A stretch of 64,000 bases of DNA from Asticcacaulis taihuensis (GTDB lineage Bacteria; Pseudomonadota; Alphaproteobacteria; Caulobacterales; Caulobacteraceae): NCBI RefSeq assembly GCF_900100255.1, contig NZ_FMTS01000006.1:124001-188000 (forward strand). Reading direction: 5' to 3'. Below, in pieces: positions 8,742 through 27,820 of the stretch (positions within the stretch are counted from its first letter, which is position 1; each line of letters starts with the position of its first letter). The position numbers and the translations under genes were made by a program. The notes below the pieces were generated by a model, which made no database searches, was not told the origin of the DNA, and saw only the letters and a list, made by a program, of their open reading frames with translations.

Positions 8742-8755
8742 TTGCGTTTGATCAA
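8742..8755. promoter_or_regulatory. FNR/FixK-type box upstream of phaC
   Basis: TTGCG-TTTG-ATCAA: the right half matches TTGAT-N4-ATCAA perfectly, the left differs at two bases. Its centre (8748.5) is 41.5 bp upstream of 8790, the phaC ATG, which is the class II FNR distance to a +1. Confidence 0.6.
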
Positions 8756-8789
8756 ATGAGTGAGGACGGGTGCGGGCTATACACGCGCC

Positions 8790-10535
8790 ATGTTCGACCC
8801 GATCACACCTGAAAGTCCGGTTGCGGATTCGCGTGCGTCCGCCAACCCGATGACATGGCTGGCGCCGGACATGGCCGATCAGGCGGATCAGACGTGGCAA
8901 GGGTGGCTGTCGCATTTCACCTTCGGCCTGACGCCGGCGGGACTGGCCGAAACCGGCTTCGCCTGGCTGTCGCACCTGACCCTTTGCCCCGGCCGGCTGG
9001 CCGAGCTGGCCGTGTTACCACTGACGCATCTTCATGATCCGTTTGCCGAGGGGCCGCGCGATTCCCGTTTCCGCTCCGAACTGTGGAAACAGTGGCCGTG
9101 GCGGCAATATGTGCAGAACTTTCATCTGGCCCAAGCCTTCTGGGACCGGGCGACGCTGGATATTCCAGGCCTGGCGCCCGCCCATGCCCGCAGCATCAAT
9201 TTTGTGGCGCACCAGGTGCTTAACGCCCTGTCGCCGGCCAATTTCTGGCTGACTAATCCCGAGATCCAGAAGGCCGTCCGGCAATCCGGCGGACAAAACC
9301 TGGTGCAGGGCCTGATTCATTTCTACGAGGATTGGCAGCGCAGGGTGACTGGCCAGCGTCCGAAGGGCATGGACGCCTTCATCCCCGGCCGTACCGTGGC
9401 GGTGACGCCGGGGCGGGTTGTATTCCGCAACGATCTGATCGAACTGATCCAGTACGCGCCGCAGACTGCGGATGTCCATGCCGCGCCGGTCCTGATCCTG
9501 CCGGCGTGGATCATGAAATATTACATTCTCGACCTGTCGCCGCACAATTCACTTGTCAAATGGCTGGTTGGGCAAGGCCACACCGTTTTCATGGTGTCAT
9601 GGAAAAACCCCGGCAGCGTCGACCGCGACAAAGGCATGGACGACTATATGCGTGACGGCGCCCTGGCCGCGCTCGATGCCGTGTCCGATATCGTGCCGGG
9701 CCAGAAGGTCAACCTGGCGGGCTATTGTCTGGGCGGCACCCTGGCCCTGATCCTCGCCGCCTGGCTGGCGGTGAAGCGGGATGACCGGCTGCAAAGCCTG
9801 TCGCTTTTCGCCGCCCAGGGCGATTTCACCGAGGCCGGGGAACTCAGCGTGTTCGTTACGGATTCCGAAGTCGCCTACCTCAAAAACATGATGCGCGCCC
9901 AGGGCTATCTCGATACCCGCCAGATGGCCGGCGCCTTCCAGATGCTGCGCTCCAGCGAAAGCCTGTGGTCGCACATCGTCCGCGATTACTGGCTGGGCCA
10001 GCGGGCGGAGATGTTCGACCTTCTGGCCTGGAACGCCGACGCCACGCGGATGCCTTACCGGATGCACAGCGAATACCTGGAGAAGCTTTTCCTGCAGAAT
10101 GCCTTCATCAACGGCCATTACCGGGTGCTGGGCGAAACCGTGGCGCCCGAAAACATCACCCTGCCAGTCTTCGCGGTCGGCACAGAAAGCGACCACGTCG
10201 CCCCGTGGCGCTCGGTCTACAAGGTTCATCAGTTCACGGCGGGCGATGTCACCTTCGCCCTGACCAATGGCGGGCATAATGCCGGCATTGTCAGCGAACC
10301 CGGCCGCACCGACCGCCACTACTGCCTGGCCGAACACAAGGCGGGTACGCCGCTGCAATCCCCTGATGACTGGCGGGCCGGCGCGCCGTGCCATACGGGC
10401 TCCTGGTGGCTGGCCTGGGACGACTGGCTTTCCAGGCAGGACAAGGCGGCAAGGCAATCGGCGCCGGTGGCCTTCGGCAATGCCCGTTTCCCGCCCCTCG
10501 AAGCCGCGCCCGGCCTCTATGTCCATCAGCCCTGA
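8790..10535 (+). CDS. phaC: Class I poly(3-hydroxyalkanoate) synthase
   Basis: Polymerises hydroxyacyl-CoA into polyhydroxyalkanoate granules, a carbon and reducing-power store. The 581-aa length fits class I PhaC. The lipase-like box has Cys in place of Ser (AGYCLGG, Cys about residue 313), followed by the catalytic Asp in GTESDHVAPW and His in TNGGHNAG. The N-terminal PhaC_N region contains NPEIQKAVRQSGGQNLVQG. No ribosome-binding site precedes the ATG at 8790; a GTG at 8760 lies in frame but just below the FNR-type box. It starts a tight operon with pta, ackA and fabI (8-nt gap, then two ATGA overlaps). Confidence 0.93.
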   Translation: MFDPITPESPVADSRASANPMTWLAPDMADQADQTWQGWLSHFTFGLTPAGLAETGFAWLSHLTLCPGRLAELAVLPLTHLHDPFAEGPRDSRFRSELWKQWPWRQYVQNFHLAQAFWDRATLDIPGLAPAHARSINFVAHQVLNALSPANFWLTNPEIQKAVRQSGGQNLVQGLIHFYEDWQRRVTGQRPKGMDAFIPGRTVAVTPGRVVFRNDLIELIQYAPQTADVHAAPVLILPAWIMKYYILDLSPHNSLVKWLVGQGHTVFMVSWKNPGSVDRDKGMDDYMRDGALAALDAVSDIVPGQKVNLAGYCLGGTLALILAAWLAVKRDDRLQSLSLFAAQGDFTEAGELSVFVTDSEVAYLKNMMRAQGYLDTRQMAGAFQMLRSSESLWSHIVRDYWLGQRAEMFDLLAWNADATRMPYRMHSEYLEKLFLQNAFINGHYRVLGETVAPENITLPVFAVGTESDHVAPWRSVYKVHQFTAGDVTFALTNGGHNAGIVSEPGRTDRHYCLAEHKAGTPLQSPDDWRAGAPCHTGSWWLAWDDWLSRQDKAARQSAPVAFGNARFPPLEAAPGLYVHQP

Positions 10536-10543
10536 GACCTGTC

Positions 10544-11491
10544 ATGAACGTCCCTGTCCACCCTGCCGATCATTACAGCCACATCCTGGAGAGCGCCAAG
10601 GTGCTGCCGCGCATCACAGTGGCGGTCATTCATCCGGTCGATGCCCACGCCTTGGAAGCAGCGGCCGACGCCCAGGCGGAAGGGCTGATCATGCCGATCC
10701 TGATCGGCCCGAAAGAGCGTATCCGCAAGGCGGCGGAGGATAACGGCATCGACATAGCCGGCTGGACGGTGATGGACGTAGAGCACAGCCATGCCGCCGC
10801 TGAAACCGGTGTGGCCATGGCGGCGCGCGGCGAGGTCGATGCCCTGATGAAAGGCGCGCTGCACACAGACGAACTGCTGACGGCCGTAGTGGCGAAAGAG
10901 GCCGGCCTGCGCACCGAACGGCGCATGTCGCACGCCTATATTCTCGACATTCCCATGTATCACAAGCCTCTGATCGTCACCGACGCGGCGATCAATGTCG
11001 CCCCCGACCTCGAAGAAAAGGCCGATATCTGCCGCAACGCCATCAGCCTGTGGCACAGCCTGTTTGGTGATGAGCGCCCGCCCAAGGTCGCGCTTCTGTC
11101 GGCGGTGGAAACCGTGATCAGCGCCATGCCCTCGACCATCGATGCCGCCGCCCTGTGCAAGATGGCCGACCGCGGCCAGATTACCGGGGCGATCCTCGAC
11201 GGCCCGCTGGCCTTCGACAACATCATCAGCCGCGAGGCCGCCGATGACAAGGGACTGGTCTCGCCTGTGGCGGGCGATGCCGATATCATCGTCGTGCCCA
11301 ATATTGAGGCCGGCAATGCCCTGGCCAAGGAGCTGATCTATTTGGGCCACGCCCAGGCCGCCGGCATCGGGCTCGGCGCACGGGTGCCGGTCATCCTGAC
11401 CAGCCGGGCGGACTCGTTGCGGACGCGGCGACTGTCCTGCGTTGTGGCACAGTATCTGGTCGAGGCCCGACGGAAAGGTCGCCTGAAATGA
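10544..11491 (+). CDS. Phosphate acetyl/butyryltransferase
   Basis: Transfers an acyl group from CoA to phosphate, giving acyl-phosphate for the downstream kinase. The 315-aa product covers the PTA_PTB domain: PILIGPKERIRKAAEDNGIDI, then ARGEVDALMKGALHTDELL, and the C-terminal GAILDGPLAFDNIISREAADDKG and VPNIEAGNALAKELIYLG motifs. It lacks the extra N-terminal domains of long Pta proteins, so it is the short type, close to phosphate butyryltransferases; acetyl versus butyryl preference cannot be read from sequence. The start at 10544 lies 8 nt after phaC, and the stop overlaps ackA by 4 nt. Longer in-frame extensions run into phaC and are rejected. Confidence 0.92.
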   Translation: MNVPVHPADHYSHILESAKVLPRITVAVIHPVDAHALEAAADAQAEGLIMPILIGPKERIRKAAEDNGIDIAGWTVMDVEHSHAAAETGVAMAARGEVDALMKGALHTDELLTAVVAKEAGLRTERRMSHAYILDIPMYHKPLIVTDAAINVAPDLEEKADICRNAISLWHSLFGDERPPKVALLSAVETVISAMPSTIDAAALCKMADRGQITGAILDGPLAFDNIISREAADDKGLVSPVAGDADIIVVPNIEAGNALAKELIYLGHAQAAGIGLGARVPVILTSRADSLRTRRLSCVVAQYLVEARRKGRLK

Positions 11492-12603
11492 CCGACGCCC
11501 TGCTCGTTCTCAATGCCGGCTCATCCAGCCTGAAATTCCGCCTGTTCGGCCTGACGCCGGACCTGCCGGTGATTGCCGGCGGCAAGGTCAGTGATATCGG
11601 CGGCCGGCCGGTGTTTCAGGCGGCGGCCTCCGGTGAAGCGCCGCGCGCCCTGCCGCCTCATATAGATGCCGGCAAGGCCCTGGCCTTCGTACTGGACTGG
11701 CTGAAACAGGCGGCCGGACAGGCTCGCTTGCGGGCCTGCGCTCACCGGATCGTGCACGGTGGGCCAGATTTCCTCCACGCCACCGAACTGGACCGTGCGG
11801 CGGTCGATGACCTGCGCCGCTTCAACAGCCTGGCCCCGCAGCATCAGGTGCATAACCTGGCGGCCATCGAAGCCCTGTGGGCGCAGGATCCGCGCTTGCG
11901 TCAGTTCGGCTGTTTCGATACCGCCTTTCACGCCCATATCGATCCGCTTCATTATCAGTTCGCCCTGCCGAAAAGCCTGCGTGACAAGGGTGTCCGCCGC
12001 TACGGCTTCCATGGGCTGTCCTATGCCTGGATCGCCCACCGCCTGGCCTATGATCATCCGGCATTGGCGAAAGGCCGGGTGGTGGTGGCCCATTTGGGCA
12101 ACGGGGCCAGCCTGTGCGCCCTGAAAGCCGGCCGCAGTATCGATACCACCATGGGCCTGACGGCGCTTGATGGTTTGCCGATGGGCACGCGCTGCGGCGC
12201 CCTCGATCCAGGCGCGGTGCTCTACATGCAGCAGGGGCTTGGCCTGTCGCTGGAAGACATCAGCGATGTGCTCTATAACCAGTCCGGCCTGCTCGGCCTG
12301 TCGGGCGTCAGCAATGATGTCAAAACCCTGCTTGAAAGTCCGTTGCCGGCTGCGGCCCTGGCGCTCGATTATTTTGCCCTGAAAACGGCCCAGCAGATCG
12401 CCGCCATGACCGTGAGTCTGGGCGGTCTCGATGGCCTCGTCTTTACCGGCGGCATCGGCGAAAACGCCGCGCCGGTGCGTGAAAAAATCCTCCACCATCT
12501 CGCCTTCCTGCCCCCGTTTGAAACCCACATCATCGCCGCCAATGAGGAGCGCCAGATGGCGCTGGAAATCATGACGGCCTTTTATCAGGAGACTGTCTCA
12601 TGA
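11488..12603 (+). CDS. ackA: Acetate (or butyrate/propionate) kinase
   Basis: Makes ATP from acyl-phosphate and ADP, completing substrate-level phosphorylation with the upstream phosphotransacylase. The 371-aa protein has all ASKHA-fold signatures: LNAGSSSLKF at the N-terminus, RYGFHGLSY, the nucleotide loop VAHLGNGASLC, the acetokinase motif TTMGLTALDGLPMGTRCG and FTGGIGENA near the C-terminus. It is slightly shorter than E. coli AckA (400 aa). It overlaps pta and fabI by ATGA junctions, implying translational coupling. The pairing suggests fermentative energy conservation when respiration is limited. Confidence 0.94.
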   Translation: MTDALLVLNAGSSSLKFRLFGLTPDLPVIAGGKVSDIGGRPVFQAAASGEAPRALPPHIDAGKALAFVLDWLKQAAGQARLRACAHRIVHGGPDFLHATELDRAAVDDLRRFNSLAPQHQVHNLAAIEALWAQDPRLRQFGCFDTAFHAHIDPLHYQFALPKSLRDKGVRRYGFHGLSYAWIAHRLAYDHPALAKGRVVVAHLGNGASLCALKAGRSIDTTMGLTALDGLPMGTRCGALDPGAVLYMQQGLGLSLEDISDVLYNQSGLLGLSGVSNDVKTLLESPLPAAALALDYFALKTAQQIAAMTVSLGGLDGLVFTGGIGENAAPVREKILHHLAFLPPFETHIIAANEERQMALEIMTAFYQETVS

Positions 12604-13358
12604 CCGACGCTCTCAAGGGTCTGGTGATCGGCATTGCCAACGAAGACTCCATCGCCTGGGCCTGCGCCAGGGCCTTTCACGACCGGGGCGCGCACCTGAT
12701 CGTGACCTGCCAGAACGAACAGACGCGTGGTGCCGTCGAAGACCTGGCCGCCCGCATCGGCGCCGAACCGGTTTTGCCGCTTGATGTCACCAGCGAAGCC
12801 CAGATGGACGCCGTTTTTGCGGCCATCGCCGATAAATGGGGGCGGTTCGACTTTCTGCTCCATTCCATCGCCTACGCCCCGCCGGCGGATCTTCTGGGCG
12901 AACTCACCAATGCTTCGGGCAGCGGCTTTGCCATAGCCATGGATGTCTCGTGCCACTCACTGATCCGGCTGGCGAAACGGGCGCGGCCCCTGATGAAAAA
13001 TGGCGGCGCCATCCTGACCATGAGCTATTACGGCGCGGAAAAGGTCATGCCGCATTATAACCTGATGGGTCCGGTCAAGGCCGCGCTGGAATCCAGTGTG
13101 CGTTACCTGGCCTGGGAGTTGGGCCCCAGCGATATCCGCGTCAATGCCCTGTCGCCCGGACCGGTGCGCAGCCGGGTGTCGCCGCATCCTGGCCGCTTTG
13201 ACGAGATCATGCAGGAGGATGTATTCCGGACGCCCCTGCACCGCGCCATCACCCTCGAACAGATCGGTGATGTGGCGGCCTTCATGGTGTCGCCCCTGGC
13301 CTCCGGCATCAATGGCCAGGTCATCCACGTCGATAATGGCTTTACGGCGATTGGTTAA
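12600..13358 (+). CDS. fabI: Enoyl-ACP reductase, FabI type
   Basis: Reduces trans-2-enoyl thioesters with NAD(P)H. This 252-aa SDR has the FabI-specific nucleotide motif GIANEDSIAWACA and the catalytic layout Y-x-GAEKVMPHY-x6-K (YYGAEKVMPHYNLMGPVK) of FabI rather than the common YxxxK. It is the last gene of the phaC-pta-ackA operon, outside any fatty-acid synthesis cluster, so it is probably a second FabI paralogue; it could reduce enoyl-ACP for membrane lipids or supply a redox sink. The adjacent phasin has its own promoter. Confidence 0.9.
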   Translation: MTDALKGLVIGIANEDSIAWACARAFHDRGAHLIVTCQNEQTRGAVEDLAARIGAEPVLPLDVTSEAQMDAVFAAIADKWGRFDFLLHSIAYAPPADLLGELTNASGSGFAIAMDVSCHSLIRLAKRARPLMKNGGAILTMSYYGAEKVMPHYNLMGPVKAALESSVRYLAWELGPSDIRVNALSPGPVRSRVSPHPGRFDEIMQEDVFRTPLHRAITLEQIGDVAAFMVSPLASGINGQVIHVDNGFTAIG

Positions 13359-13366: not shown

Positions 13367-13396
13367 GGGTGGTTTTGATCGGGGTCAAAACCACCC
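13367..13396. promoter_or_regulatory. FNR/FixK box inside a 12-bp inverted repeat, upstream of the phasin gene
   Basis: The core TTGAT-CGGG-GTCAA spans 13375-13388 and sits in a perfect longer repeat, GGGTGGTTTTGA / TCAAAACCACCC with a 6-nt loop. It starts 9 nt after the fabI stop and its centre is about 71 bp before the phasin ATG, so it may also act as a hairpin for the upstream operon. Confidence 0.7.
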
Positions 13397-13452
13397 TGCG
13401 ATTGTCATGCGACCATGCCGCCTTCCCGGACAGACAGAACAGGAGAGCCCTC

Positions 13453-14010
13453 ATGCCCGCTGATACCATTGCCCCCTCACGACCTGCCCCTTCGCAGACT
13501 ACCGCCCCTGACGCCGTTGCCGCTCAAGCTGCGGCCTCACAGACCACCGCGCCGCAAAAGCCCCGCCCCCAGCCGAATGGCGGAGCCAGGCCCCGGCCGG
13601 ACGGCCTCGACCGCTCGGAGGAAGGCGCCGCCACCTTCGTCCAGGCCAGTGATGGCCTGAAACGGATCAGTGCCGCCTGCATGACCGTCGGGTCCGACAA
13701 CATGGCCGCCCTGACCGAGGCCGGCGCCCTGGCCGGACGCCTGATGACCGATATGACCAAAAGCTATATCGACGCCGTCAGCTATGCCGCCGTCACCTAT
13801 GCCGGCCTGGGCCGCGATTGCCTCACCTGCCGCACACCGGCCGATGTCGTCGAATTCCAGAAAAAGGCGCTCGAAGGCTTCACCGAAACCTATGAAGCCT
13901 CCAGCAAGGTTTACAGCAATCTGTTTGAAGCCTTCTCGACCGCTTTCGAACCGCTTATGGCGCGGGCGGCGGACGGTCCGGAACGGATGTTCCGCGCCTT
14001 TGCTGATTGA
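13453..14010 (+). CDS. Phasin family protein
   Basis: Phasins coat polyhydroxyalkanoate granules and set their size and number. The 185-aa product has a low-complexity Ala/Pro/Gln/Thr N-terminal 60 residues and then the helical phasin domain (SDNMAALTEAGALAGRLMTDMTKSYID, TPADVVEFQKKALEGFTETYEASSKVY, LMARAADGPERMFRA). AGGAGAG lies just upstream of the ATG at 13453, which settles the start against an upstream GTG at 13369. It is monocistronic: an FNR-type box lies above and a strong terminator below. Position next to phaC supports the granule role. Confidence 0.9.
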   Translation: MPADTIAPSRPAPSQTTAPDAVAAQAAASQTTAPQKPRPQPNGGARPRPDGLDRSEEGAATFVQASDGLKRISAACMTVGSDNMAALTEAGALAGRLMTDMTKSYIDAVSYAAVTYAGLGRDCLTCRTPADVVEFQKKALEGFTETYEASSKVYSNLFEAFSTAFEPLMARAADGPERMFRAFAD

Positions 14011-14089: not shown

Positions 14090-14650
14090 CTACAGCAGGC
14101 AGATCATCTGCTGCCGCCCGTCGCGGCTGCGGCAGCCGGTGTAGAGGAAGCCGGCTGCGACAAGCCAGTCGGCCAACTGGTTGTCCGCCCCGCTGTGTTC
14201 CGCATGGATGACAAAGCAGATATCATGGTCGCGCAGCCAGCCCAGCAGGCCGTCGATCACCTCCGGCACATAAGGGGCAAATATCCGGTCACGGCGGCAG
14301 GCGATATCGAGATGCGGGCCGAAATAACAATCAAAATCCGAAGACACCGGCGCCGGATTCAGAGACACAAATCCCAGCGGATCGCCGCGGTTGGTGAAGA
14401 CGGCCCACATCCAGCCGGTGTCATCACCCCCGTGCCCATCGGCAGGCCGGTAGACGCCCGGAAGGGGTGCGCCATACGCCTGTCCGGCCTGGATCAGTTC
14501 CAGCCGCGCATTTTCCGTCTGGATCGAGATGGGCAACGGTCTGAAGCCCCCCCTTGCCGGCAGGCTTTCCGGGCTCAGACCGTCCAGGCTCTGAAGGGGG
14601 GCAGGGGACTGCGGATAGCGTATTTCATGGGAGGCAACACGGGCATTCAT
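14090..14650 (-). CDS. GNAT-like protein, function unknown
   Basis: A 186-aa protein. The second half looks like an acetyltransferase fold: WMWAVFTNRGDPLGFVSLNPAP as a beta hairpin, a central stretch IFAPYVPEVIDGLLGWLRDHDICFVIHAEHSGADNQLADW and a terminal strand AAGFLYTGCRSRDGRQQMICLL. The classic acetyl-CoA loop Q/R-x-x-G-x-G/A is not evident, so catalysis is uncertain. GAGG precedes the ATG at 14650. It follows a 68-aa gene by 45 nt and is probably co-transcribed with it from the promoter carrying the perfect FNR box at 14959. Confidence 0.7.
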   Translation of the reverse strand: MNARVASHEIRYPQSPAPLQSLDGLSPESLPARGGFRPLPISIQTENARLELIQAGQAYGAPLPGVYRPADGHGGDDTGWMWAVFTNRGDPLGFVSLNPAPVSSDFDCYFGPHLDIACRRDRIFAPYVPEVIDGLLGWLRDHDICFVIHAEHSGADNQLADWLVAAGFLYTGCRSRDGRQQMICLL

Positions 14651-14695: not shown

Positions 14696-14902
14696 TTAGT
14701 CTGTGGCGTGATCGCAAATATATTCCTGTTCGGGCGTCAGTGCGCAGGGTGTTCTGTCTGACTTTCCTTCAGATGTTTTGAATGTCTTTTCCTGCGGCAC
14801 GGCTTCTGGTTTGCGGCATGTGACAGTCAGCTCGCAATCAATGCCGCCGACCTCGCGTTCGAATTCCACCTGTCCGGCCTGTCTGGGGTGTGGCTTTTTC
14901 AT
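14696..14902 (-). CDS. Small cysteine-containing hypothetical protein
   Basis: A 68-aa ORF with a strong ribosome-binding site (GGGAGGACATA before the ATG at 14902). The product is basic at the N-terminus (MKKPHPRQAGQVEFER) and has four Cys, in DCELTVTC, TPC and YIC. I do not recognise the family. It is the first gene downstream of the FNR box at 14959-14972, whose position predicts a start of transcription about 22 nt before this ATG, and it probably shares an mRNA with the GNAT-like gene. The Cys residues could bind metal or act in redox sensing; that is speculation. Confidence 0.6.
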   Translation of the reverse strand: MKKPHPRQAGQVEFEREVGGIDCELTVTCRKPEAVPQEKTFKTSEGKSDRTPCALTPEQEYICDHATD

Positions 14903-14958
14903 TATGTCCTCCCGATCGGATTGTTAGGATTTTATAAACCTTTCCGGATCGGGCGCGT

Positions 14959-14972
14959 TTGATCGCAATCAA
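14959..14972. promoter_or_regulatory. Perfect FNR/FixK box between the 68-aa gene and the Crp/Fnr gene
   Basis: TTGAT-CGCA-ATCAA matches the consensus at all ten half-site positions. At -41.5 it predicts a minus-strand start near 14924 (22-nt leader) and, on the plus strand, a start near 15007 (110-nt leader) for the regulator gene, allowing autoregulation. Confidence 0.8.
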
Positions 14973-15116
14973 TGAGTACAACGATGCGCACGGAAATTTG
15001 AGAGCCTCACTTAGGAACGCAAAGGTAGGGCTGCGTATTATTTCGCTATTTAAGCGAACCTTATTGGGTTAATATAGGACTGCATCAGGATCGTCCCCAA
15101 TAGACGAGGCGCATGA

Positions 15117-15875
15117 ATGAGTAAGCAGACCGACATGCTGAAAACCCTGCCACTGTTCTGTGATTTGCCAGAACAGCAGGTCCTGCTGCTGGCGTCACAC
15201 AGCCACATCCGCAAATGCGAACGCGGCACGTTTCTTTTCCTGCACGGCGACGAGATACGCAATTTCAAGATCCTTTGCCGCGGCACGGTGCAGCTTTTCC
15301 GCGAGACACCGGACGGTCACGAAGTGACCAGCGACATTCTCATCGCCGGGGATTGCATCAATGCCGAGGAGGTGATTGCCCTCCAGACCACCCACCTGAC
15401 CAGCGCCCGGATTGTGGATGATGCCCAGGTGCTGGAAGTGCCGATCCGCTGGATGCGCGAACACCTGGCGGATTTCGACCGGCTAGCGCCGCGCCTGTTG
15501 CAGAGCCTCTCCGAGCGACTGCATGGCGCGCGCATGGAGGCCGAACACCGCTCCACCATGTCGGCCACACAGATGGTGGCCTGTTATCTCCAGGGCCTGT
15601 GCGTGCTCTATGATTTCGACCCGAACGGGTTCGAACTGCCCTATTCCAAGACGCTGATCGCCTCGCGCCTGCGCATGGAACTGGCCACCTTTTCGCGCAC
15701 GCTCCAGAAGCTGAAGGAGGTGGGCATTTCGGTGAACGGAAACCATGTGGCCTTCACCAATCTGAACCAGGCCGGCCATTTCGTCTGCGACAACTGTTCG
15801 ATGGCGGAGGATTGCGCCACGCACCGGGCCCTGTCGCAAATGGCTCAGCCGGACAACCTCAGGATAACCAGCTAA
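15117..15875 (+). CDS. Crp/Fnr family transcriptional regulator with C-terminal Cys motif
   Basis: A 252-aa regulator with a cyclic-nucleotide-binding-like beta-roll (residues 10-115), a dimer helix (115-150) and a winged HTH (160-215). The region most resembles FNR/DNR proteins: SKTLIASRLRMELATFSRTL aligns with the recognition helix, where FNR and DNR have E-T-x-S-R; here the Glu position is Ala190, followed by Ser193-Arg194. The N-terminal Fe-S cysteines of E. coli FNR are absent, but C224-x2-C227-x5-C233 at the C-terminus has the same spacing as FNR C20/C23/C29, and B. subtilis Fnr is known to use C-terminal Cys ligands. It lies in the middle of a cluster of FNR-box promoters and is the likely controller. 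Its 3' end overlaps the convergent nitroreductase gene by 17 nt. Confidence 0.9.
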   Translation: MSKQTDMLKTLPLFCDLPEQQVLLLASHSHIRKCERGTFLFLHGDEIRNFKILCRGTVQLFRETPDGHEVTSDILIAGDCINAEEVIALQTTHLTSARIVDDAQVLEVPIRWMREHLADFDRLAPRLLQSLSERLHGARMEAEHRSTMSATQMVACYLQGLCVLYDFDPNGFELPYSKTLIASRLRMELATFSRTLQKLKEVGISVNGNHVAFTNLNQAGHFVCDNCSMAEDCATHRALSQMAQPDNLRITS

Positions 15876-17424: not shown

Positions 17425-17499
17425 GTCTGGCCTCCGAAGCGGTCCTCCTTGCGGGAGGTATATTTTACGAGACCATAGGGTGCGCCGCATCAATTGACT

Positions 17500-17513
17500 T
17501 TGATCGCAGTCAA
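17500..17513. promoter_or_regulatory. FNR/FixK box between two divergent USP genes
   Basis: TTGAT-CGCA-GTCAA, one base from a perfect palindrome. A -41.5 placement predicts leaders of about 23 nt (plus strand) and 41 nt (minus strand), so one site could serve both genes. Confidence 0.8.
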
Positions 17514-17570
17514 ATACCATGACGGCCCGCGATCCTAGAGTGTCGGGACATCCGATCAGGAGGCTGTCCC

Positions 17571-19481: not shown

Positions 19482-19533
19482 GGTATCCTCCGGTCATACC
19501 TCGCCATCCATAACAGGAAATTCGCCAGGCGGT

Positions 19534-19547
19534 TTGACGCCGGTCAA
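19534..19547. promoter_or_regulatory. FNR/FixK box between cytochrome c and SDR genes
   Basis: TTGAC-GCCG-GTCAA, a perfect palindromic variant. A -41.5 placement gives leaders of about 21 nt (plus) and 18 nt (minus), consistent with control of both operons. Confidence 0.75.
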
Positions 19548-19602
19548 ATCAGCGGCGCTGCGGCCTCTCTATGGTATGGGGGTAATCACCGGAGGCATTG
19601 CC

Positions 19603-20379: not shown

Positions 20380-21441
20380 ATGCGCGCCATGCAGATTTCA
20401 CGGACCGGTCCCCTGCATGAGCGGTCGCTGGAGCCGGTGGATATCCCCGTTCCGGCGCCCGGTCCCGGCGAGGTGCGCCTGCGCGTCCTGGTCTGCGGCG
20501 TCTGCCATACCGAACTGGATGAGATCGAGGGCCGAGCCATACCGCCGCACCTGCCGGTCATTCCGGGCCATCAGGTGATCGGCCGCATCGATGCCGTTGG
20601 CGAGGGTGTCGAGGGCCTGTCCGTCGGTGATCGGGTCGGGGTCGCCTGGATATTCCACGCTTGTGGCCAGTGCCGCCATTGCCTTGATGGCGAGGAAAAC
20701 CTGTGCGCCGGTTTCCGGGCCACCGGCCGCGACGTCAATGGCGGCTATGCCGAGAAAATGATTGTCTCTGCCGATTTCGTCCATGCCATCCCGGAATCCT
20801 TCAGCGATGCCGAGGCCGCCCCTTTGCTTTGCGCCGGCGCCGTCGGTTTCCGTGCCCTGCGGCTGACGGGCCTGCTGGATGGCGAACAGGATGGGGCGAC
20901 GCTTGGTTTCAGCGGCTTCGGCGCATCGGCGCATCTGGTGTTGCAACTGGCCCGCCAGCGCCTGCCCGCCTGCCGCTTTTATGTCTTTGCCCGCAGTGCT
21001 GATGAACGCGCCTTCGCCTTGAACCTCGGCGCCGACTGGGCCGGCGGCTTCGATGAGGCGCCGCCGCGGCTGCTGGATGCCATAATCGACACCACGCCCG
21101 CCTGGCGGCCCATCGTCTCCGTCCTGCGCCACCTCGTGCCCGGCGGCCGGCTGGTCATCAATGCCATCCGCAAGGAAGACACCGACAAGGCGGCCCTGCT
21201 GGAGCTCGACTATGCCCGCGACCTGTGGCTGGAGAAACAGGTCCGCACCGTCGCCAATGTCACCCGCGAAGATGTCCGCGAATGCCTGCTGTGGGCAGCC
21301 GAGGCCGATCTCCATCCGCAGGTGGAAGTCTACGACCTGGCGGAGGCCAATCAGGCTCTGCTCGATCTCAGGTCGAAGCCGGTGCGTGGTGCGAAGGTTT
21401 TGCGCGTCGCCAGCGATACCACCGCCCCGTCAGCCATTTAA
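20380..21441 (+). CDS. Zinc-binding alcohol dehydrogenase family protein
   Basis: A 353-aa medium-chain dehydrogenase. Catalytic zinc ligands are in CGVCHTELD and GHQVIGRI, and the structural zinc cluster is ACGQCRHCLDGEENLC. The coenzyme motif is altered: the usual GxGxxG is GFSGFGASAH, common in a subfamily annotated as zinc-binding ADH next to stress genes. It lies 9 nt after the SDR gene. Its last 74 nt overlap the 3' end of the convergent P-type ATPase gene, which could cause antisense interference. It plausibly reduces aldehydes to alcohols to regenerate NAD+ under low oxygen. Confidence 0.9.
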   Translation: MRAMQISRTGPLHERSLEPVDIPVPAPGPGEVRLRVLVCGVCHTELDEIEGRAIPPHLPVIPGHQVIGRIDAVGEGVEGLSVGDRVGVAWIFHACGQCRHCLDGEENLCAGFRATGRDVNGGYAEKMIVSADFVHAIPESFSDAEAAPLLCAGAVGFRALRLTGLLDGEQDGATLGFSGFGASAHLVLQLARQRLPACRFYVFARSADERAFALNLGADWAGGFDEAPPRLLDAIIDTTPAWRPIVSVLRHLVPGGRLVINAIRKEDTDKAALLELDYARDLWLEKQVRTVANVTREDVRECLLWAAEADLHPQVEVYDLAEANQALLDLRSKPVRGAKVLRVASDTTAPSAI

Positions 21442-23932
21442 GCCCTTCCAGGCCCGCCAGCATGAGCACCCCGGCGGAAAGGGCCAGGGCAGTCATCGGC
21501 CAGGACGGGGCGTCAAAGCGGAACAGGTGGCGGGCGAAAGGCAGGGCGAGGCCGAGCGTCAGCACCACCGCCACGGCGAGGAAAACCAGCACCAGGGCGC
21601 GATTGGGCCGGCGTATCGCTTCCAGGATGGACGCGGCGCGCGAACGATTGACCAGCACCAGGCTGAGGATGACCGCCACCAGCGCCATGAAGGTCACGGC
21701 GCGCACGGCGTCCACCGAAAGCCCGGCCCGGAGGGCGAAGCCCAGCATCAGGACGACCGCGCCCAGAGCGAGCCCGCCCTGGATGACGCCGCGGCTGATA
21801 AAGGCCAGGGAAAACATCGGCCGCTCCGGATCACGCGGCGGCCGGCGCATGATGTCGTCCTCCTCGGTCTCCGCCTCGAAGACGAGGGTGCAGACCGGAT
21901 CGATGATCATTTCGAGGAAGGCGATATGGACCGGCCCCAGCAGGATCGGCAGGCCAAACACCAGGGGCAGCAGGGCCAGCCCGGCGATCGGCACATGCAC
22001 GGCCAGGATGAAGGTCACCGCCTTGTGCAGGTTGTCATAGATGCGCCGCCCCAGGCGGATGGCCTTGACGATCGAACCGAAATCATCGTCGAGCAACACG
22101 ATCGCTGAGGCTTCGCGCGCCACGTCCGTGCCGCGCTGGCCCATGGCAATGCCGATATGCGCCGCCTTGAGCGTGGGGGCATCATTGACGCCGTCACCGG
22201 TCATGGCCACCACCTCGCCTTTTGCCTTGAGGGCCTCGACGATACGCAGTTTCTGCTGCGGCATGATGCGCGCGAAGACGGTGGTGGCCTCGATGCGGCG
22301 GGCGAGGTCTGCGTCATCCATCGTCGCCAGTTCATCGCCGGTCATTATCTCATTGGCGTCGATCCCGGCCTGGGTGGCGATGGCGCGCGCCGTTACCGGA
22401 TAATCGCCGGTGATCATGACGACGCGGATTCCGGCCGTCCGGCATTCGGCTACCGCCGCCGGCACGGCCGCCCTCAGGGTATCGGCCAGGCCGACCAGGC
22501 CCAGAAATTCAAACGCGAAGCCGTGCTGGTCCTCGGGCAATGCGGGCCGGGCCGCCGTCGCTCGCGCCACCCCCAGCACCCGCAAGCCTTCCGCCGCCAT
22601 GGCGTCGGCATCGCCCGCGAGCCGGGCGCGGCTTGCCGCATCGAGCCCGCACAGCCCGGCGATGGCCTCCGGCGCCCCCTTGCCCGCCACCACCAGCTCG
22701 TCGTCATCCGCCGTCTGCCAGACATTGGACATGGCCAGCAGGTCGGGATGCAGGCCGAAGGCCCGGACCAGTTGCCACTGATGGACGGCTCCGTCGGGCT
22801 GAAAGGCGTGCAGGGCCTTTTCCATCGGGTCGAACGGCTCGCGCGCGCTGGCCAGGATGCTGAACCGCGCCAGATCGTGGAAAGCATCCGGCAGGGCCTC
22901 GTCGGACGCCCGGTAAACCTGGCCGTCGGGCCGGCGCAGTTCGGCCACCCGCATGATATTTTCTGTCAGGGTGCCGGTCTTGTCGGTGCAGAGCACCGTG
23001 GCCGCGCCAAGGGTCTCAATCGCCGCCGCCCGCCGGGTCAGCACCCTGGCGCGGGAGATGCGCCATGCCCCCATGGCCATGAAGATGGTGACGACGACCG
23101 GAAATTCCTCCGGCAGCATCGACATGCCGACGGCGATCCCCGCCAGCAGCGCCTCCAGCCAGGTGCCGCGATAAAGACCATAAAGGATCATCACCAGCAG
23201 GCTGATAACCCCGCCGCCGATGGCGAAGACACGGACCAGCCGGCCCATTTCGCGCTTGAGGCGCGGCGGCTCGGTGATCAGTTCGCCGAGGCTCTGGCCG
23301 ATGCGTCCGATCTGGCTGCGCGGCCCGGTGGCGATTACCTCGGCGAGGCCCGAACCGCGCACCACCATCGTGCCGGAAAAGACGTAAGGGCGGTCATCGC
23401 CGCCCGGCAACGCCGCCTCTTCCGCCACGGTGACAGCCGCCACCTTGCGAACCGGCACCGACTCGCCGGTCAGCAGGGATTCGTCGGTTTGCAGGCTTTG
23501 GCACTCGATCACGCGGCCATCGGCCGGCACCCGGTCGCCTTCGCTGAGCACCAGCAGGTCGCCGGCCACCACCTCGCGCCCGGCGATACGCTCGCGCTGA
23601 CCATCGCGGATGACCAGGGCGCGCGGACTGGTGAGGTCGCGCAGGGCCTCCAGCACCCGCTCGGTGCGCGCCTCCTGCACCACGGTGATCACCACTGAAA
23701 ACAGGGCGAGAACCATCAGTATGACGGCTTCGCTCAGGTCACCGAGGACGAGATAGATTACCCCGCCTGCGATCAGCAGGGCCAGCATGGGCTCGCGGAT
23801 TACCTCCAGCGCGATCCGCAACGGGGTGCGCTTCGCCTGGCGCGGCAGTTCGTTGGCGCCGTCACGGGCAAGACGAACGCTGGCCTCTTCCGCACTCAGG
23901 CCGGTTGAAAGGCTCTGCGAGGGTCCGGACAT
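21368..23932 (-). CDS. P-type cation-translocating ATPase, type II (Ca2+-ATPase-like)
   Basis: An 854-aa integral membrane pump. Order: N-terminal actuator region (LSAEEASVRLARDGANELP), TM1-2, TGES in the A domain (LLTGESVPVRK), TM3-4 with the ion-site motif PEEFP (Ca2+-ATPases usually PEGLP), the phosphorylation site DKTGT, nucleotide-binding KGAPEAI, the hinge TGDGVNDAPTLKAAHIGIAMG, then TM5-10. AAGGAGAG precedes the ATG at 23932. Its ion cannot be fixed from sequence; the PEEFPV variant suggests Ca2+ or Mg2+-type transport but is unconfirmed. It lies divergent from the BON/Hsp20 genes across two FNR-like boxes. Confidence 0.9.
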   Translation of the reverse strand: MSGPSQSLSTGLSAEEASVRLARDGANELPRQAKRTPLRIALEVIREPMLALLIAGGVIYLVLGDLSEAVILMVLALFSVVITVVQEARTERVLEALRDLTSPRALVIRDGQRERIAGREVVAGDLLVLSEGDRVPADGRVIECQSLQTDESLLTGESVPVRKVAAVTVAEEAALPGGDDRPYVFSGTMVVRGSGLAEVIATGPRSQIGRIGQSLGELITEPPRLKREMGRLVRVFAIGGGVISLLVMILYGLYRGTWLEALLAGIAVGMSMLPEEFPVVVTIFMAMGAWRISRARVLTRRAAAIETLGAATVLCTDKTGTLTENIMRVAELRRPDGQVYRASDEALPDAFHDLARFSILASAREPFDPMEKALHAFQPDGAVHQWQLVRAFGLHPDLLAMSNVWQTADDDELVVAGKGAPEAIAGLCGLDAASRARLAGDADAMAAEGLRVLGVARATAARPALPEDQHGFAFEFLGLVGLADTLRAAVPAAVAECRTAGIRVVMITGDYPVTARAIATQAGIDANEIMTGDELATMDDADLARRIEATTVFARIMPQQKLRIVEALKAKGEVVAMTGDGVNDAPTLKAAHIGIAMGQRGTDVAREASAIVLLDDDFGSIVKAIRLGRRIYDNLHKAVTFILAVHVPIAGLALLPLVFGLPILLGPVHIAFLEMIIDPVCTLVFEAETEEDDIMRRPPRDPERPMFSLAFISRGVIQGGLALGAVVLMLGFALRAGLSVDAVRAVTFMALVAVILSLVLVNRSRAASILEAIRRPNRALVLVFLAVAVVLTLGLALPFARHLFRFDAPSWPMTALALSAGVLMLAGLEGLKWLTGRWYRWRRAKPSHHAPAST

Positions 23933-23971: not shown

Positions 23972-24028
23972 TTGATCACGATCCAGACATTGGCGTGAAT
24001 TCCGTCGGTGGTGTTTGACAGCGGTCAA
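23972..24028. promoter_or_regulatory. Two FNR/FixK-like boxes between the P-type ATPase and BON genes
   Basis: TTGAT-CACG-ATCCA at 23972-23985 (one mismatch) and TTGAC-AGCG-GTCAA at 24015-24028. The second, at -41.5, predicts a 45-nt leader for the BON gene and a 48-nt leader for the ATPase gene. The first overlaps the predicted ATPase start and might repress. Confidence 0.65.
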
Positions 24029-24107
24029 ATGGCGGCCGCCGGGCGGCGATTAAACTGCGCGCCGAGGCCGCATGTAGCGCCCGCATCTCAGTCAACAGGA
24101 GCTAATC

Positions 24108-24755
24108 ATGAAAGACGATCAGTTGCATCAGGATGTTCTGGATGAACTTGATTTTGAACCGAGCATCAATGCCGCCCATATCGGTGTCGCTGTCGATGAC
24201 GGCATAGTCACCCTGACCGGCGAGGTCGGCAGCTTTGCCGAAAAATATAATGCCGAGCGCGCCGTCCGCCGCGTCAAGGGCGTGCATGGCATAGTCGAGC
24301 ACATCAAGGTGGTATTCCCGTCCGACAAGGTGACGGGCGACGCCGAAATCGCCGAGCGCGTCCTGGCCAGCCTGAAATGGAGCGCCCTGGTGCCGGCTGA
24401 CCGTGTCACCGTGAAGGTCGAAAATGGCTGGGTGGCGCTCAATGGCGAGCTCGACTGGCAGTTCCAGAAGTCGGCGGCCGAGGCAGCCGTGCGCCGCCTG
24501 TCGGGTATCAAGGGTATCAGCAACCTGATCAAGCTGCCGCCGCAGGTGGCCGGCACCAATGTCAAGCAGCGCATCGAGGACGCCCTGAAACGCAATGCCG
24601 AGGTCGAGGCCCAGCGCATCCAGGTCGGGGTCAACGGTTCAAAGGTGATCCTGAACGGCAGCGTCGATACCTGGCATGAACGCAATGTCGCCGAAAGCGC
24701 TGCCTGGGCTGTGCCGGGCGTCACCATGGTCGAAGATCACCTGCGTATTGCCTGA
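24108..24755 (+). CDS. BON domain protein, three BON repeats
   Basis: A 215-aa protein built almost entirely of three BON domains (about 5-75, 80-145, 150-215), each with the pattern hydrophobic-V-x-V-x(D/N)G-x-V-x-L-x-G (DGIVTLTGEV, NGWVALNGEL, GSKVILNGSV). There is no signal peptide, so it is probably cytosolic, unlike OsmY. AGGAGC precedes the ATG. BON domains bind phospholipids and occur in stress-protection proteins. It is co-transcribed with hsp20 19 nt downstream. Such proteins co-occur with USP and Hsp20 in Anr/FixK-type regulons of other proteobacteria. Confidence 0.9.
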   Translation: MKDDQLHQDVLDELDFEPSINAAHIGVAVDDGIVTLTGEVGSFAEKYNAERAVRRVKGVHGIVEHIKVVFPSDKVTGDAEIAERVLASLKWSALVPADRVTVKVENGWVALNGELDWQFQKSAAEAAVRRLSGIKGISNLIKLPPQVAGTNVKQRIEDALKRNAEVEAQRIQVGVNGSKVILNGSVDTWHERNVAESAAWAVPGVTMVEDHLRIA

Positions 24756-24774: not shown

Positions 24775-25290
24775 ATGTCTACTCAATCTCTTACCCCCGC
24801 CCGCAAGGAAGCCGTTTCGGTCGTCCGGGGCGATAATCCGATCCGCGGCCTGCAGAACGACGTCAACCGCCTGTTCAATGACTTCTTCGGCGACCTGTCC
24901 TTTCCCTCATGGGATAACTTCTTTGGCGACCGTTTCACCAGCGCCCTCTCAATGAAAATGCCGGCGCTCGACCTGCGCGAAAGCGACAAGGCCTATACGC
25001 TCGTGGCCGAGGTGCCAGGTATGCAGGCCAAGGATATACAGGTCTCGACCGCCGATGGCTGCATTACGCTGGCCGGAGAAAAGTCTGAATCCCACGAAAC
25101 CCGCGACAAGGACTATATCCGCCAGGAACGCAGCCACGGCAGCTTCCGGCGCGTGGTTCCCATGCCGGCCGATGCCGATATCGACAATGTCAAGGCCGAG
25201 ATGAAGAACGGCCTGCTCACCCTGACCATCGCCCGCAAGGCGGAGGACAGCACGAAGTCGCGCAAGGTCGATATCCGTGAACTGGCCTGA
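24775..25290 (+). CDS. Small heat shock protein Hsp20
   Basis: A 171-aa alpha-crystallin-domain holdase that prevents protein aggregation. The N-terminal arm (RGLQNDVNRLFNDFFGD) precedes the crystallin domain (about residues 62-160; PALDLRESDKAYTLVAEVPGM, the FRRVVPMPADADIDNVKAEMKNGLLTLTIARK block carrying the GLLT strand) and a short basic tail. Length and order fit Hsp20 family A. It is the second gene after BON and probably the last of that operon, with a strong hairpin 25 nt downstream. Confidence 0.93.
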   Translation: MSTQSLTPARKEAVSVVRGDNPIRGLQNDVNRLFNDFFGDLSFPSWDNFFGDRFTSALSMKMPALDLRESDKAYTLVAEVPGMQAKDIQVSTADGCITLAGEKSESHETRDKDYIRQERSHGSFRRVVPMPADADIDNVKAEMKNGLLTLTIARKAEDSTKSRKVDIRELA

Positions 25291-26234: not shown

Positions 26235-26245
26235 GGAATACTCTT

Positions 26246-26455
26246 TTACTTGAAGCTGACGCCTGGTTTGACGCCCAGTTTCTTGAAGATCATGGCGGCC
26301 GGGCAAAAGCCGGTGAAGGCTGCCTGGAACATGTTGGCGCCGGCAAAGGCCGTCAGCCAGTACCAAAGCGGGTTGACGAAATATCCGAGCGCCAGGCTCG
26401 CCAGGACGACGAAGCCGGCAAAGGCCATAACGGCTTTATCGAGAGTCATGATCAT
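26246..26455 (-). CDS. DUF2892 (YgaP-like) membrane protein
   Basis: A 69-aa inner-membrane protein with two hydrophobic helices (VMAFAGFVVLASLALGYFV and WYWLTAFAGANMFQAAFTG) and the family hallmark GFCPAAMIFKKLG. The DUF2892 domain is the membrane part of YgaP, where it is joined to a rhodanese; here it is a separate gene in the sqr operon, with a rhodanese gene on the other side of the promoter. The start at 26455 overlaps the sqr stop (ATGA). Confidence 0.9.
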   Translation of the reverse strand: MIMTLDKAVMAFAGFVVLASLALGYFVNPLWYWLTAFAGANMFQAAFTGFCPAAMIFKKLGVKPGVSFK

Positions 26456-27744
26456 TCACCTTTCAGCTTGTGGGCGCCCATCATATTGAGCGCCATTTTT
26501 TCAAAGAACATTTCGCTTTTCCCGGCCTTGACCTTGCCGATGAAGTAACCCTCGAAGGCTTCCTTGGCGAGGTGGACCCACTTGCCGGAAGCGGCCCAGT
26601 TGATATTACGCGGCGGGATCTGCGGCTGGGCGAAAAAGGCCACCCCGCCGTCGCCGAAATCGGCCAGGCAGATGGCGTTCCAGGTCGCTTCGTGCGTCGG
26701 CGCCTGCCCGGAGAGTTCCTGCTTCAGATTATGCGCCACGGCCGTGACCATGGATTCGATCATGAAGCCGGTCTTGGGCACACCCACCGGCACGGCGGTC
26801 TTGCCCATCGGTGGAATGGCAACGCAGACGCCCAGACTGTAGATATTGGGGAAGGCCGGATTGCGCTGGTGCTTGTCGATGAGGATGAAGCCGCGCGGAT
26901 TGGTCAGGCCCTCGATGCCGCGCACCGCCTCGACGCCGCGGAAGGCGGGCAGCATCATGGAAAAGCCGAACGGCAGTTCGTGATCGGCCTTGTGCGCGCC
27001 ATCCTCGGTCAGTTCCTCGACGAATATCTTGCCGGCTTCGACGCGGCTGACCTTGGCGTTGACGATCCACTTGATGTGGCGGTTGCGCATCTCGCTTTCG
27101 AGCAGGCCCTTGGTGTCGCCCACGCCGTCGAGGCCGAGGTGGCCGATATAGGGCTCGGAGGTGACGAAGGTCATCGGCACGCGATCACGCACCTTGCGTT
27201 TCCTCAGTTCGGTATCGACGATCATGGCGAATTCATAGGCCGGACCGAAGCAGGACGCGCCCTGCACCGCGCCGATAACGATCGGCTGCGGATTGGCGGC
27301 CAGTTGATCGAAGACAGTGCCGGCGGCCACGGCATGATCGACCTGGCAGACCGATTGCGTAAAGCCGGTATGCGGCCCCAGTCCCTCGATCTCGTCGAAG
27401 GCCAGTTCCGGGCCTGTGGCAATGACCAGATAATCGTAGGTCAGAGCCTCGCCAGTTGTCAGTTGCACGACATTATTCGCCGGATCAATGCGCGCGGCCC
27501 CTTCCGGGTGGAAAATGATGCCCTTCTTCTGGAAGACCGGACGCAGGTCGACCTCGATCGCCTCGCGCTTGCGCCAGCCGACGGCGACCCACGGGTTGGA
27601 CGGCACGAACTGATAACGATGGCCCTTGTTGACCACGATGATCTCGGCCTTGTCGCCGACGGCTTCCCAGATCTCGAAGGCGGCGATGGAGCCGCCAAGC
27701 CCCGCGCCCAGAATGACGATGCGTGGTGTCTTACCGGTAGTCAT
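26452..27744 (-). CDS. sqr: Sulfide:quinone oxidoreductase family flavoprotein
   Basis: Oxidises sulfide to (poly)sulfane sulfur and passes electrons to quinone at the inner membrane. The 430-aa product has the FAD motif GAGLGGSIAAFE at residues 13-24, an ATGPEL second FAD motif and three Cys at positions typical of SQR: QSVCQVD, GASCFGPAYEF and LGVCVAIPP. The C-terminal amphipathic segment (AFEGYFIGKVKAGKSEMFFEKMALNMMG) may attach to the membrane. It starts a three-gene operon with DUF2892 and carboxymuconolactone decarboxylase-like genes. An FNR box and an AT-rich palindrome precede it. Confidence 0.9.
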   Translation of the reverse strand: MTTGKTPRIVILGAGLGGSIAAFEIWEAVGDKAEIIVVNKGHRYQFVPSNPWVAVGWRKREAIEVDLRPVFQKKGIIFHPEGAARIDPANNVVQLTTGEALTYDYLVIATGPELAFDEIEGLGPHTGFTQSVCQVDHAVAAGTVFDQLAANPQPIVIGAVQGASCFGPAYEFAMIVDTELRKRKVRDRVPMTFVTSEPYIGHLGLDGVGDTKGLLESEMRNRHIKWIVNAKVSRVEAGKIFVEELTEDGAHKADHELPFGFSMMLPAFRGVEAVRGIEGLTNPRGFILIDKHQRNPAFPNIYSLGVCVAIPPMGKTAVPVGVPKTGFMIESMVTAVAHNLKQELSGQAPTHEATWNAICLADFGDGGVAFFAQPQIPPRNINWAASGKWVHLAKEAFEGYFIGKVKAGKSEMFFEKMALNMMGAHKLKGE

Positions 27745-27806
27745 GGTACTCTGTCCTCCTGATTTGGCCTGGCTCCAAGCCTTAGGCTTAAAAAGGCCGG
27801 TGAGGT

Positions 27807-27820
27807 TTGATCGGCGTCAA
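27807..27820. promoter_or_regulatory. FNR/FixK box between sqr and the rhodanese gene
   Basis: TTGAT-CGGC-GTCAA inside an 8-bp arm inverted repeat (AGGTTTGA / TCAAACCT). At -41.5 it predicts a 28-nt leader for sqr and about 109 nt for the rhodanese operon. Confidence 0.75.

Follow-up and report, generated by a model that had tools for sequence, protein, structure and literature searches.

A box-bearing gene island of Asticcacaulis taihuensis and its putative low-oxygen regulator FnrC, a Crp/Fnr-type protein with C-terminal cysteines

A 64,000-nucleotide (nt) stretch of the Asticcacaulis taihuensis genome (GCF_900100255.1, NZ_FMTS01000006.1 positions 124,001-188,000, forward strand), hereafter called the window, contains a 19-kb island (approximately 8742-27820; coordinates are positions within the window) in which genes of polyhydroxyalkanoate (PHA) storage, stress proteins and redox enzymes accompany fnrC, a gene for a Crp/Fnr-type regulator, and palindromic boxes of the pattern TTGAY-N4-RTCAA (TTGAYNNNNRTCAA). 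The clustering of the boxes, their spacing from -10 hexamers in close relatives, their linkage to fnrC in other genomes and the cysteines of FnrC suggest that this protein may activate the island when oxygen is low.

Genes and boxes of the island

The island opens on the plus strand with genes for a PHA synthase (phaC, 8790-10535, PF07167; TIGR01838 below cut-off), a phosphate acetyltransferase-type enzyme (pta, 10544-11491, PF01515), an acetate kinase-type enzyme (ackA, 11488-12603, named from an earlier note on this DNA and from the pta context, not from a family scan), an enoyl-acyl carrier protein reductase of the FabI type (12600-13358, NF005717 above cut-off) and a phasin (13453-14010, PF09361 at cut-off). 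Two minus-strand genes without a Pfam family, for a 186-amino acid (aa) protein (14090-14650, with a counterpart beside fnrC in locus L068, 41%) and a 68-aa open reading frame (ORF; 14696-14902), precede fnrC itself (15117-15875, plus strand, 252 aa). Beyond it are genes for a nitroreductase family protein (15859-16506, minus, PF00881), the universal stress proteins USP1 (16513-17424, minus) and USP2 (17571-18485, plus; both PF00582), a flavodoxin-fold NAD(P)H oxidoreductase (18487-19092, minus, PF02525), a c-type cytochrome (19089-19481, minus, PF00034 and PF13442), a short-chain dehydrogenase (SDR; 19603-20370, plus, PF13561), a zinc alcohol dehydrogenase family protein (20380-21441, plus, PF08240), a cation P-type ATPase (21368-23932, minus, PF00122 and PF00689), a protein with three BON stretches (24108-24755, plus, PF04972), Hsp20 (24775-25290, plus, PF00011) and an SQR-like flavoprotein (26452-27744, minus, PF07992; NF049943 below cut-off). 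The island shows no clear break in GC content (0.57-0.67 in 4-kb steps).

Of eight box sites listed in the earlier note, six match the pattern exactly (coordinates on the plus strand): TTGATCGGGGTCAA upstream of the phasin gene (13375-13388), TTGATCGCAATCAA between the 68-aa ORF (minus) and fnrC (plus; 14959-14972), TTGATCGCAGTCAA between the two divergent USP genes (17500-17513), TTGACGCCGGTCAA between the cytochrome c (minus) and SDR (plus) genes (19534-19547), TTGACAGCGGTCAA upstream of the BON gene (plus; 24015-24028) and TTGATCGGCGTCAA between the SQR-like (minus) and rhodanese-like (plus) genes (27807-27820). The other two depart from it, TTGATCACGATCCA upstream of the P-type ATPase gene (minus; 23972-23985) by one mismatch and TTGCGTTTGATCAA upstream of phaC (8742-8755) by two. 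All eight are intergenic, and to the four sites that had been placed correctly between divergent genes (17500, 19534, 24015 and 27807) 14959 is to be added.

Dinucleotide shuffles of the window are expected to contain 0.23 exact boxes per 64 kb, and none of 100 reaches the seven found here. The seventh, at 54470-54483, is an isolated exact match with no -10 hexamer at the class II position. When the window is scored with a position weight matrix (PWM) trained on 64 boxes from relatives outside Asticcacaulis, the eight sites take ranks 1-4 and 6-9 and 54470 takes rank 5; since the same consensus served to collect the training boxes, high ranks of exact sites are built in. PWM support for the two inexact sites is modest: 23972 scores 13.8 bits and 8742 scores 13.7 bits (rank 9, near noise), and Markov sequences yield 0.75 sites of at least 13 bits per 64 kb, so that either weak site, taken singly, could be a chance match.

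Promoter geometry

A class II promoter has its box centred at -41.5 and its -10 hexamer beginning at -12, so that the hexamer starts +29.5 from the centre of the box. Among the 96 oriented boxes (48 boxes, 31 loci) around close FnrC relatives, TANNNT occurs 19 times at +29.5 and nine times at +28.5, whereas background offsets average 1.87 and never exceed 5; 27 of the 48 boxes are accompanied by at least one such hexamer. Including the window and further Asticcacaulis loci brings the total to 90 boxes, with 30 hexamers at +29.5. In the -10 counts and the count of boxes upstream of fnrC homologs, boxes with an identical core context were counted once, and the -10 counts drop boxes near a locus end. 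Pfam scans covered 20 of the 29 ORFs behind class II hexamers; these include nitroreductase, COX1-type oxidase, cation ATPase, CBS, OmpW, OmpA, MerR, HTH_3, ion-channel, DsbD-type and erythromycin-esterase families, and seven of the 20 have no family.

Within the window, strict hexamers stand at +29.5 on both strands of box 17500 (TATGGT for USP1, 17472-17477, minus; TAGAGT for USP2, 17536-17541, plus) and on the plus strand of boxes 19534 (TATGGT, 19570-19575) and 24015 (TAAACT, 24051-24056). Near-consensus hexamers occupy the class II position for 8742 on the plus strand (TATACA, 8778-8783, a -10-like element for phaC by its spacing) and for 14959 on the minus strand (TATAAA, pointing to the 68-aa ORF). 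Box 27807 has a weak TAAGGC on the minus strand, and a search for class II -10 hexamers found none for 13375 and 23972.

With the box at -41.5, arithmetic places the predicted transcription start 18-45 nt before the start codons of eight genes: cytochrome c (18 nt, predicted start at 19499 on the minus strand), SDR (21, at 19582), the 68-aa ORF (22, at 14924, minus), USP2 (23, at 17548), the SQR-like protein (28, at 27772, minus), phasin (30, at 13423), USP1 (41, at 17465, minus) and the BON protein (45, at 24063). The distance is 48 or 5 nt for the ATPase gene, which agrees with an earlier estimate of 18-48 nt for most start codons, and 109-110 nt for the rhodanese-like gene and fnrC (110 for fnrC). 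For phaC, the predicted start is the A of the ATG at 8790 (distance 0), and the same element precedes the start codon in the sister genome G401; a leaderless phaC mRNA is therefore predicted.

Three of the loci L067-L107, the 41 loci of the FnrC clade, have a box centred 29.5 nt before the script-chosen start codon of the fnrC homolog, an arrangement that suggests autorepression in those loci. Upstream of fnrC in the window, a conserved block (15050-15090) contains an inverted repeat (TTCGCT-ATT-TAAGCGAA), perhaps a site at which another regulator controls fnrC.

Boxes and regulators elsewhere in the genome

The genome (3.97 Mb, 19 contigs) contains 26 exact boxes, compared with two matches of a reversed control pattern: six in 14.4 kb of the island, seven on contig C13 and 13 scattered. 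Six boxes within 14,446 bp did not occur once in 200,000 random placements of 26 boxes. The island is not unique in its box density, an idea that was rejected because contig C13 holds a second, equally dense stretch (seven boxes in 15.5 kb, G000:C13:280647-296193; loci L065 and L066). The earlier note had taken equal density elsewhere as evidence against a clustered regulon; it is found in this one other stretch, which has a Crp/Fnr gene of its own, and the rest of the boxes are scattered. The C13 boxes, six of seven with AT-rich spacers, adjoin ftrB (NF006901, 346 bits) and, by reading, genes of nitrate respiration (nrdD/nrdG, narK, narG, narI, moaA, nnrS and ubiU/V) as well as an alternative oxidase (PF01786); they show no -10 peak (one of seven at +29.5). 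This stretch reads as a second local anaerobic regulon of the same genome.

Extrapolated from the window, the shuffles predict about 14 boxes per genome, close to the 13 scattered ones; these are nevertheless more numerous than the reversed-control matches, and some of them may be real. Of the 12 isolated boxes that were read, eight lie within mechanical ORFs of at least 80 aa and two have a class II hexamer. A ccoN match that would make cytochrome cbb3 oxidase a target was not found in this genome.

FnrC and FtrB are the only two Crp/Fnr transcription factors found in the genome. A third cNMP-domain protein (G000:C18:108904-109164; L020:1408-3237), encoded by a 609-aa ORF with a GSSMG motif, is by reading a patatin-type phospholipase and not a transcription factor. 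A canonical FNR or FixK was rejected for this genome, in which the FNR model finds nothing at E 1e-12 and the FixK-like protein nothing at E 1e-25; the absence of FNR rests on an assembly of 19 contigs, in which a gene lying in a gap could be missed. Across 18 FnrC-family genomes, the FNR model at E 1e-12 gives 11 hits, namely ten FnrC-family genes and one FixK (G394); E 1e-12 hits were used instead of the curated FNR cut-off, which is little informative (passed by one of 14 control genomes).

FnrC and its cysteines

FNR is the textbook oxygen switch of Proteobacteria, with its cluster at the N-terminal end. The FnrC sequence has no N-terminal cysteine motif, and the canonical combination of N-terminal CX2CX5C and Cys122 is absent. 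Its proposed [4Fe-4S] ligands are Cys224, Cys227 and Cys233 of a C-terminal CX2CX5C, followed by His236 (CX2CX5CX2H; codons within 15786-15824, plus strand), with Cys156 (codon 15582-15584, plus strand) as the proposed fourth ligand. The spacing of the three equals that described for Cys20, Cys23 and Cys29 of E. coli FNR in the portion of PMC4214427 covered.

FnrC scores 41.8 bits against the FNR model NF008365 (cut-off 228), 20.8 bits against the curated FixK model (cut-off 300, which the FixK-like proteins of genomes G387 and G406 also miss at 176 and 182 bits) and 66.1 and 35 bits against curated FtrB models (cut-offs 211 and 300). By sequence it is neither FNR nor FixK, contrary to how the regulator of these boxes had been typed. 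It is predicted to adopt the Crp/Fnr fold in an FNR-like form. Among proteins of solved structure it matches best, by sequence, two from Ruegeria pomeroyi that are uncharacterised (3h3z and 3fx3, E 5e-20) and DNR (2e-16), with FNR at 2.5e-10.

The C-terminal CX2CX5C occurs in 43 of 71 distinct homologs, all 43 of which have Cys156, and 24 homologs have neither. Four have Cys156 without the C-terminal motif (L081, L088, L031 and L030), so that Cys156 is present in 47 of 47 clade rows and in none of the 24 other homologs. Left out of this count were proteins of at most 200 aa (L077, L092 and L095), L097, whose sequence contains runs of N, and duplicates of identical sequence. When the tails are omitted from the tree, which includes 37 of the 41 clade loci, the 47 Cys156 rows form one branch (support 100/99). 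The tail of L031 is a shortened CX2CX2C, counted as motif-less. A frameshift as the cause of the missing tails in L081 and L088 was rejected, there being no CX2CX5C in the three frames read. L030 (L063:9806-10531, minus strand, genome G100) keeps Cys156 and has CX4CX2C near its N-terminus and no C-terminal triad; its gene adjoins FabI, Pta, AckA and flavodoxin genes and three boxes, and it could possibly be an intermediate or a case of motif relocation.

The FNR-type ExxSR motif falls at residues 190-194 (window 15684-15698), with Ser193 and Arg194 kept. Residue 190 is Ala in the window FnrC, L067-L071 and L030, Lys in L091 and Glu in the other clade rows.

One metagenome-assembled genome, D_bin4, has four fnrC-family copies (L072, L073, L074 and L078), with exact boxes near L074 only, by lineage-specific expansion or as a mixed bin. 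Genome G385 encodes a NIT nitrate/nitrite-sensing domain fused to a Crp/Fnr regulator (L138:9529-11217, minus strand) with a cysteine-rich C-terminus (CX2CX7C), and four boxes lie in its 20-kb stretch.

Conservation, gene linkage and distribution

In the sister genome G401 the block is complete and its gene order unchanged between phaC and the RND genes, and each of the six exact boxes has a counterpart there. At the counterpart of 14959 the half-sites are the same and the spacer differs (TTGATCGCAATCAA in the window, TTGATTACAGTCAA in G401). The element at 8742 shows no difference between the two genomes, and where the window has the imperfect 23972, G401 has a perfect box, within a region that aligns poorly (49%). 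Conservation of box 27807 says little, because the whole region is 96% identical. G401 is the one sister genome in which the complete island was found, and the other FnrC carriers examined keep subsets; the island is thus modular and patchy rather than one fixed block, and in that form the earlier suggestion of a co-inherited unit is not supported.

The 48 loci fetched by FnrC alignment, seven of them outside the clade, contain 78 boxes against three control matches in 747 kb. A box lies at most 500 nt upstream of the fnrC homolog in 21 of the 41 clade loci, and recurrent neighbours of fnrC homologs are USP, Hsp20, nitroreductase, cation ATPase, Pta/AckA and PhaC genes. The tie between the boxes and the neighbouring Crp/Fnr gene that had been suggested from this window is borne out by these boxes and island genes beside fnrC in other genomes. 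Some distant-branch members of the clade adjoin genes that read as ccoN and cydA, and a closer member adjoins a COX1-family oxidase gene.

FnrC is found in seven of 25 Asticcacaulis genomes, one of which, G408, has a 32% relative. A family-wide search at E 1e-25 matched eight of 199 genomes, all Asticcacaulis, the eighth by the NIT-fusion protein of G385; at that threshold the 21 further genera sampled from the family have no match. A class-wide search at E 1e-15 matched 53 of 385 genomes, a number that takes in the wider, motif-less family.

Nine of the 25 Asticcacaulis genomes have a USP1 homolog (E 1e-30), and each of the nine encodes FnrC or a FixK-like protein, in one case both; among the 16 without a USP1 homolog, one carries FnrC and 15 neither regulator (Fisher 4.9e-6, not corrected for ancestry). 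Pta is found in six of the 25, five of them with an FnrC or FixK-like regulator. In G387 and G406, Pta/AckA, phasin and USP genes (in G387 also the ATPase gene) lie among boxes within about 25 kb of the FixK-like gene. Total box counts per genome, from 4 to 46 across the 25 genomes with no clean split, are uninformative as a marker of FnrC in the genus.

Proposed regulation and alternatives

With a probability of roughly 0.6, we read the locus as a low-oxygen island activated at class II promoters by FnrC, which would carry an oxygen-labile [4Fe-4S] cluster in its C-terminal half. This reading draws on the computed boxes, their clustering and conservation in the sister genome, the -10 spacing of the close group, the linkage to fnrC, the cysteine pattern and the FNR-like predicted fold; the clustered, class II FNR-box regulon of the earlier note is upheld by the clustering of boxes and the close-group -10 peak. 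From these features we infer that FnrC binds the boxes, that it holds a cluster on the named ligands and that oxygen is the signal. As oxygen falls, FnrC would assemble [4Fe-4S] on Cys224, Cys227 and Cys233 of the tail together with Cys156, which would sit in the helix that runs into the DNA-binding domain. As a dimer, the holo-protein would then bind TTGAY-N4-RTCAA centred at -41.5 and recruit RNA polymerase, one box driving USP1 and USP2 in both directions. The genes switched on would form a survival set comprising PHA storage, ATP supply by Pta/AckA, USPs, Hsp20, the BON protein, the cation ATPase and redox enzymes, and returning oxygen would destroy the cluster and turn the island off.

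Several observations weigh against this reading. Strict -10 hexamers occur at just three of the eight window sites, and fnrC has no clear class II -10 on the plus strand from its box at 14959. The distant FnrC group shows no -10 peak (two of 46 oriented boxes at +29.5, from 23 boxes, background 0.79), and the +29.5 hexamer is present at two of six boxes in the seven clade-external loci; because it also occurs at these, the spacing belongs to the kind of box rather than to FnrC alone. No exact box was found in 17 of the 48 fetched loci, or in 13 of the 41 clade loci, some of which are short contigs. Glu190 is replaced by Ala in the window FnrC and its Asticcacaulis relatives though the box is unchanged. 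Cys156 is kept in L081 and L088, which have lost the tail motif, so it is possibly structural, and these two proteins weigh against its serving the cluster alone. The 47 rows being one clade, the co-occurrence of the cysteines counts as few independent events, and the pattern is a single innovation that has persisted across long distances. In G386, G396 and G407 the gene for the USP1 homolog and the regulator gene are not adjacent, no exact box lies in the USP1 stretch of G396, and neither regulator accompanies the Pta/AckA/FabI genes of G392. In the window's own genome, FtrB may read the same box.

FnrC might control the island through tail cysteines that hold zinc or are structural, in response to another signal such as nitric oxide via a DNR-type haem pocket. 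The nearest solved structures (3h3z, 3fx3 and DNR, with FNR weaker) fit such a role, as would the CX2CX5CX2H of the close branch, a possible zinc site with His two residues after the third cysteine in 27 of 29 rows. In the distant branch, where the four cysteines are retained, this His appears in one of 14 rows, an argument against a shared CCCH zinc site. Given also the E. coli-like cysteine spacing, the low-oxygen gene content and the fact that FnrC-family genomes show no other FNR-like gene except one FixK, we regard zinc or another signal as unlikely. That the boxes are operated by FtrB or another regulator, with fnrC a passenger or minor partner, seems distinctly improbable: FtrB does lie within its own cluster of seven similar boxes and both regulators plausibly read the same motif, but boxes and island genes recur beside fnrC in many other genomes, the USP1 homolog tracks FnrC or FixK in Asticcacaulis, and the C13 cluster differs in its nitrate-respiration genes and AT-rich spacers.

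An ordinary regulon under a canonical FNR with N-terminal cysteines, or under a FixLJ-driven FixK, would share the box and, as far as the sources covered describe FixK and FnrL regulons, a similar gene content, and some sister genomes do encode a FixK-like protein; with neither factor found in this genome beside its two Crp/Fnr factors, and with FnrC so far below the FixK cut-off, it is highly improbable here. Chance palindromes in promoter DNA could account for about 14 boxes per genome by the window shuffles, but clustering and conservation make this explanation negligible, and the placement test refutes it for the cluster as a whole.

Beyond the activation of this island by FnrC, we give slightly better than even odds to a wider proposal: FnrC would represent an undescribed alphaproteobacterial branch of oxygen sensors with a [4Fe-4S] cluster in the C-terminal half (Cys156 and CX2CX5C), independent of Gram-positive Fnr, which would replace FNR/FixK where no other FNR-like gene is found and alternate with FixK in Asticcacaulis over similar box-bearing survival genes. 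If so, iron-sulfur oxygen sensing has been placed twice on one fold, and placement at the DNA-binding domain works outside Gram-positive bacteria. FnrC could then explain the control of low-oxygen genes in many uncultured Alphaproteobacteria that show no FNR-like gene besides it. The alternation of FixK and FnrC within one genus would offer a natural experiment on how a regulator is replaced while its target sites are conserved, and the two-way USP promoter and the leaderless phaC mRNA are testable promoter predictions.

Comparison with known systems

The gene content of the island had been likened to a hypoxia or dormancy response, and it does resemble the lxa locus of Burkholderia cenocepacia and the microoxia-induced genes of Bradyrhizobium diazoefficiens in the portions of the sources covered. 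The lxa locus, associated with low oxygen, includes USPs, a heat-shock protein, a BON-domain protein, a cytochrome c, a nitro/flavin-reduction protein, a phosphate acetyl/butyryl transferase and a polyhydroxybutyrate gene (PMC6127331); USP, Hsp20, BON, Pta-type, PHA and redox genes are likewise gathered in one cluster in Asticcacaulis. In that account, lxa comprises about 50 genes and its candidate regulator, the Anr/FixK-like BCAM0049, has a locus number outside the cluster, whereas the Asticcacaulis regulator with C-terminal cysteines is encoded inside the island. The Bradyrhizobium set shares with the island USPs, nitroreductase, PHA synthase (PhaC2), alcohol dehydrogenase (AdhP) and a CRP/FNR gene (bll6060), but belongs to a FixK2-related network, and a regulator with C-terminal cysteines is not described in the portion of PMC6515984 covered.

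Similar targets are named in other systems, to the extent that the sources were covered: the predicted alphaproteobacterial FNR regulon includes USP and a heavy-metal P-type ATPase (PMC2908626), and Sphingopyxis uspA has a box at -41.5 (PMC7713065). FixK of the Caulobacter type and FtrB are alike in that the same box form lies near FixK-like and ftrB genes; FnrC differs from both in scoring far below their cut-offs, and the proteins that were read, FtrB and the two FixK-like proteins of G387 and G406, have no FNR-type cysteine motif. Section 6 of PMC2908626 names eight major alphaproteobacterial Crp/Fnr sub-families, with the four FNR cysteines dividing FNR from FixK, and a C-terminal-cysteine group is not among the sub-families named there. 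No description of a C-terminal-cysteine Fnr from Proteobacteria appeared among the matches listed in the open-access literature, as judged by titles and the starts of abstracts.

In comparison with the FNR proteins of E. coli and A. fischeri, the cysteine motif of FnrC is at the opposite end of the protein. The nearest parallel in placement is the Fnr of Gram-positive bacteria (Bacillus), in which three C-terminal cysteines are [4Fe-4S] ligands according to the parts of PMC3520743 and PMC12937710 covered. The triads themselves differ, Bacillus Fnr having CX2CX4C with aspartate as the fourth ligand and FnrC having CX2CX5C with Cys156 proposed in that position. Bacillus Fnr was compared by description, and the likeness between the two would be one of convergence.

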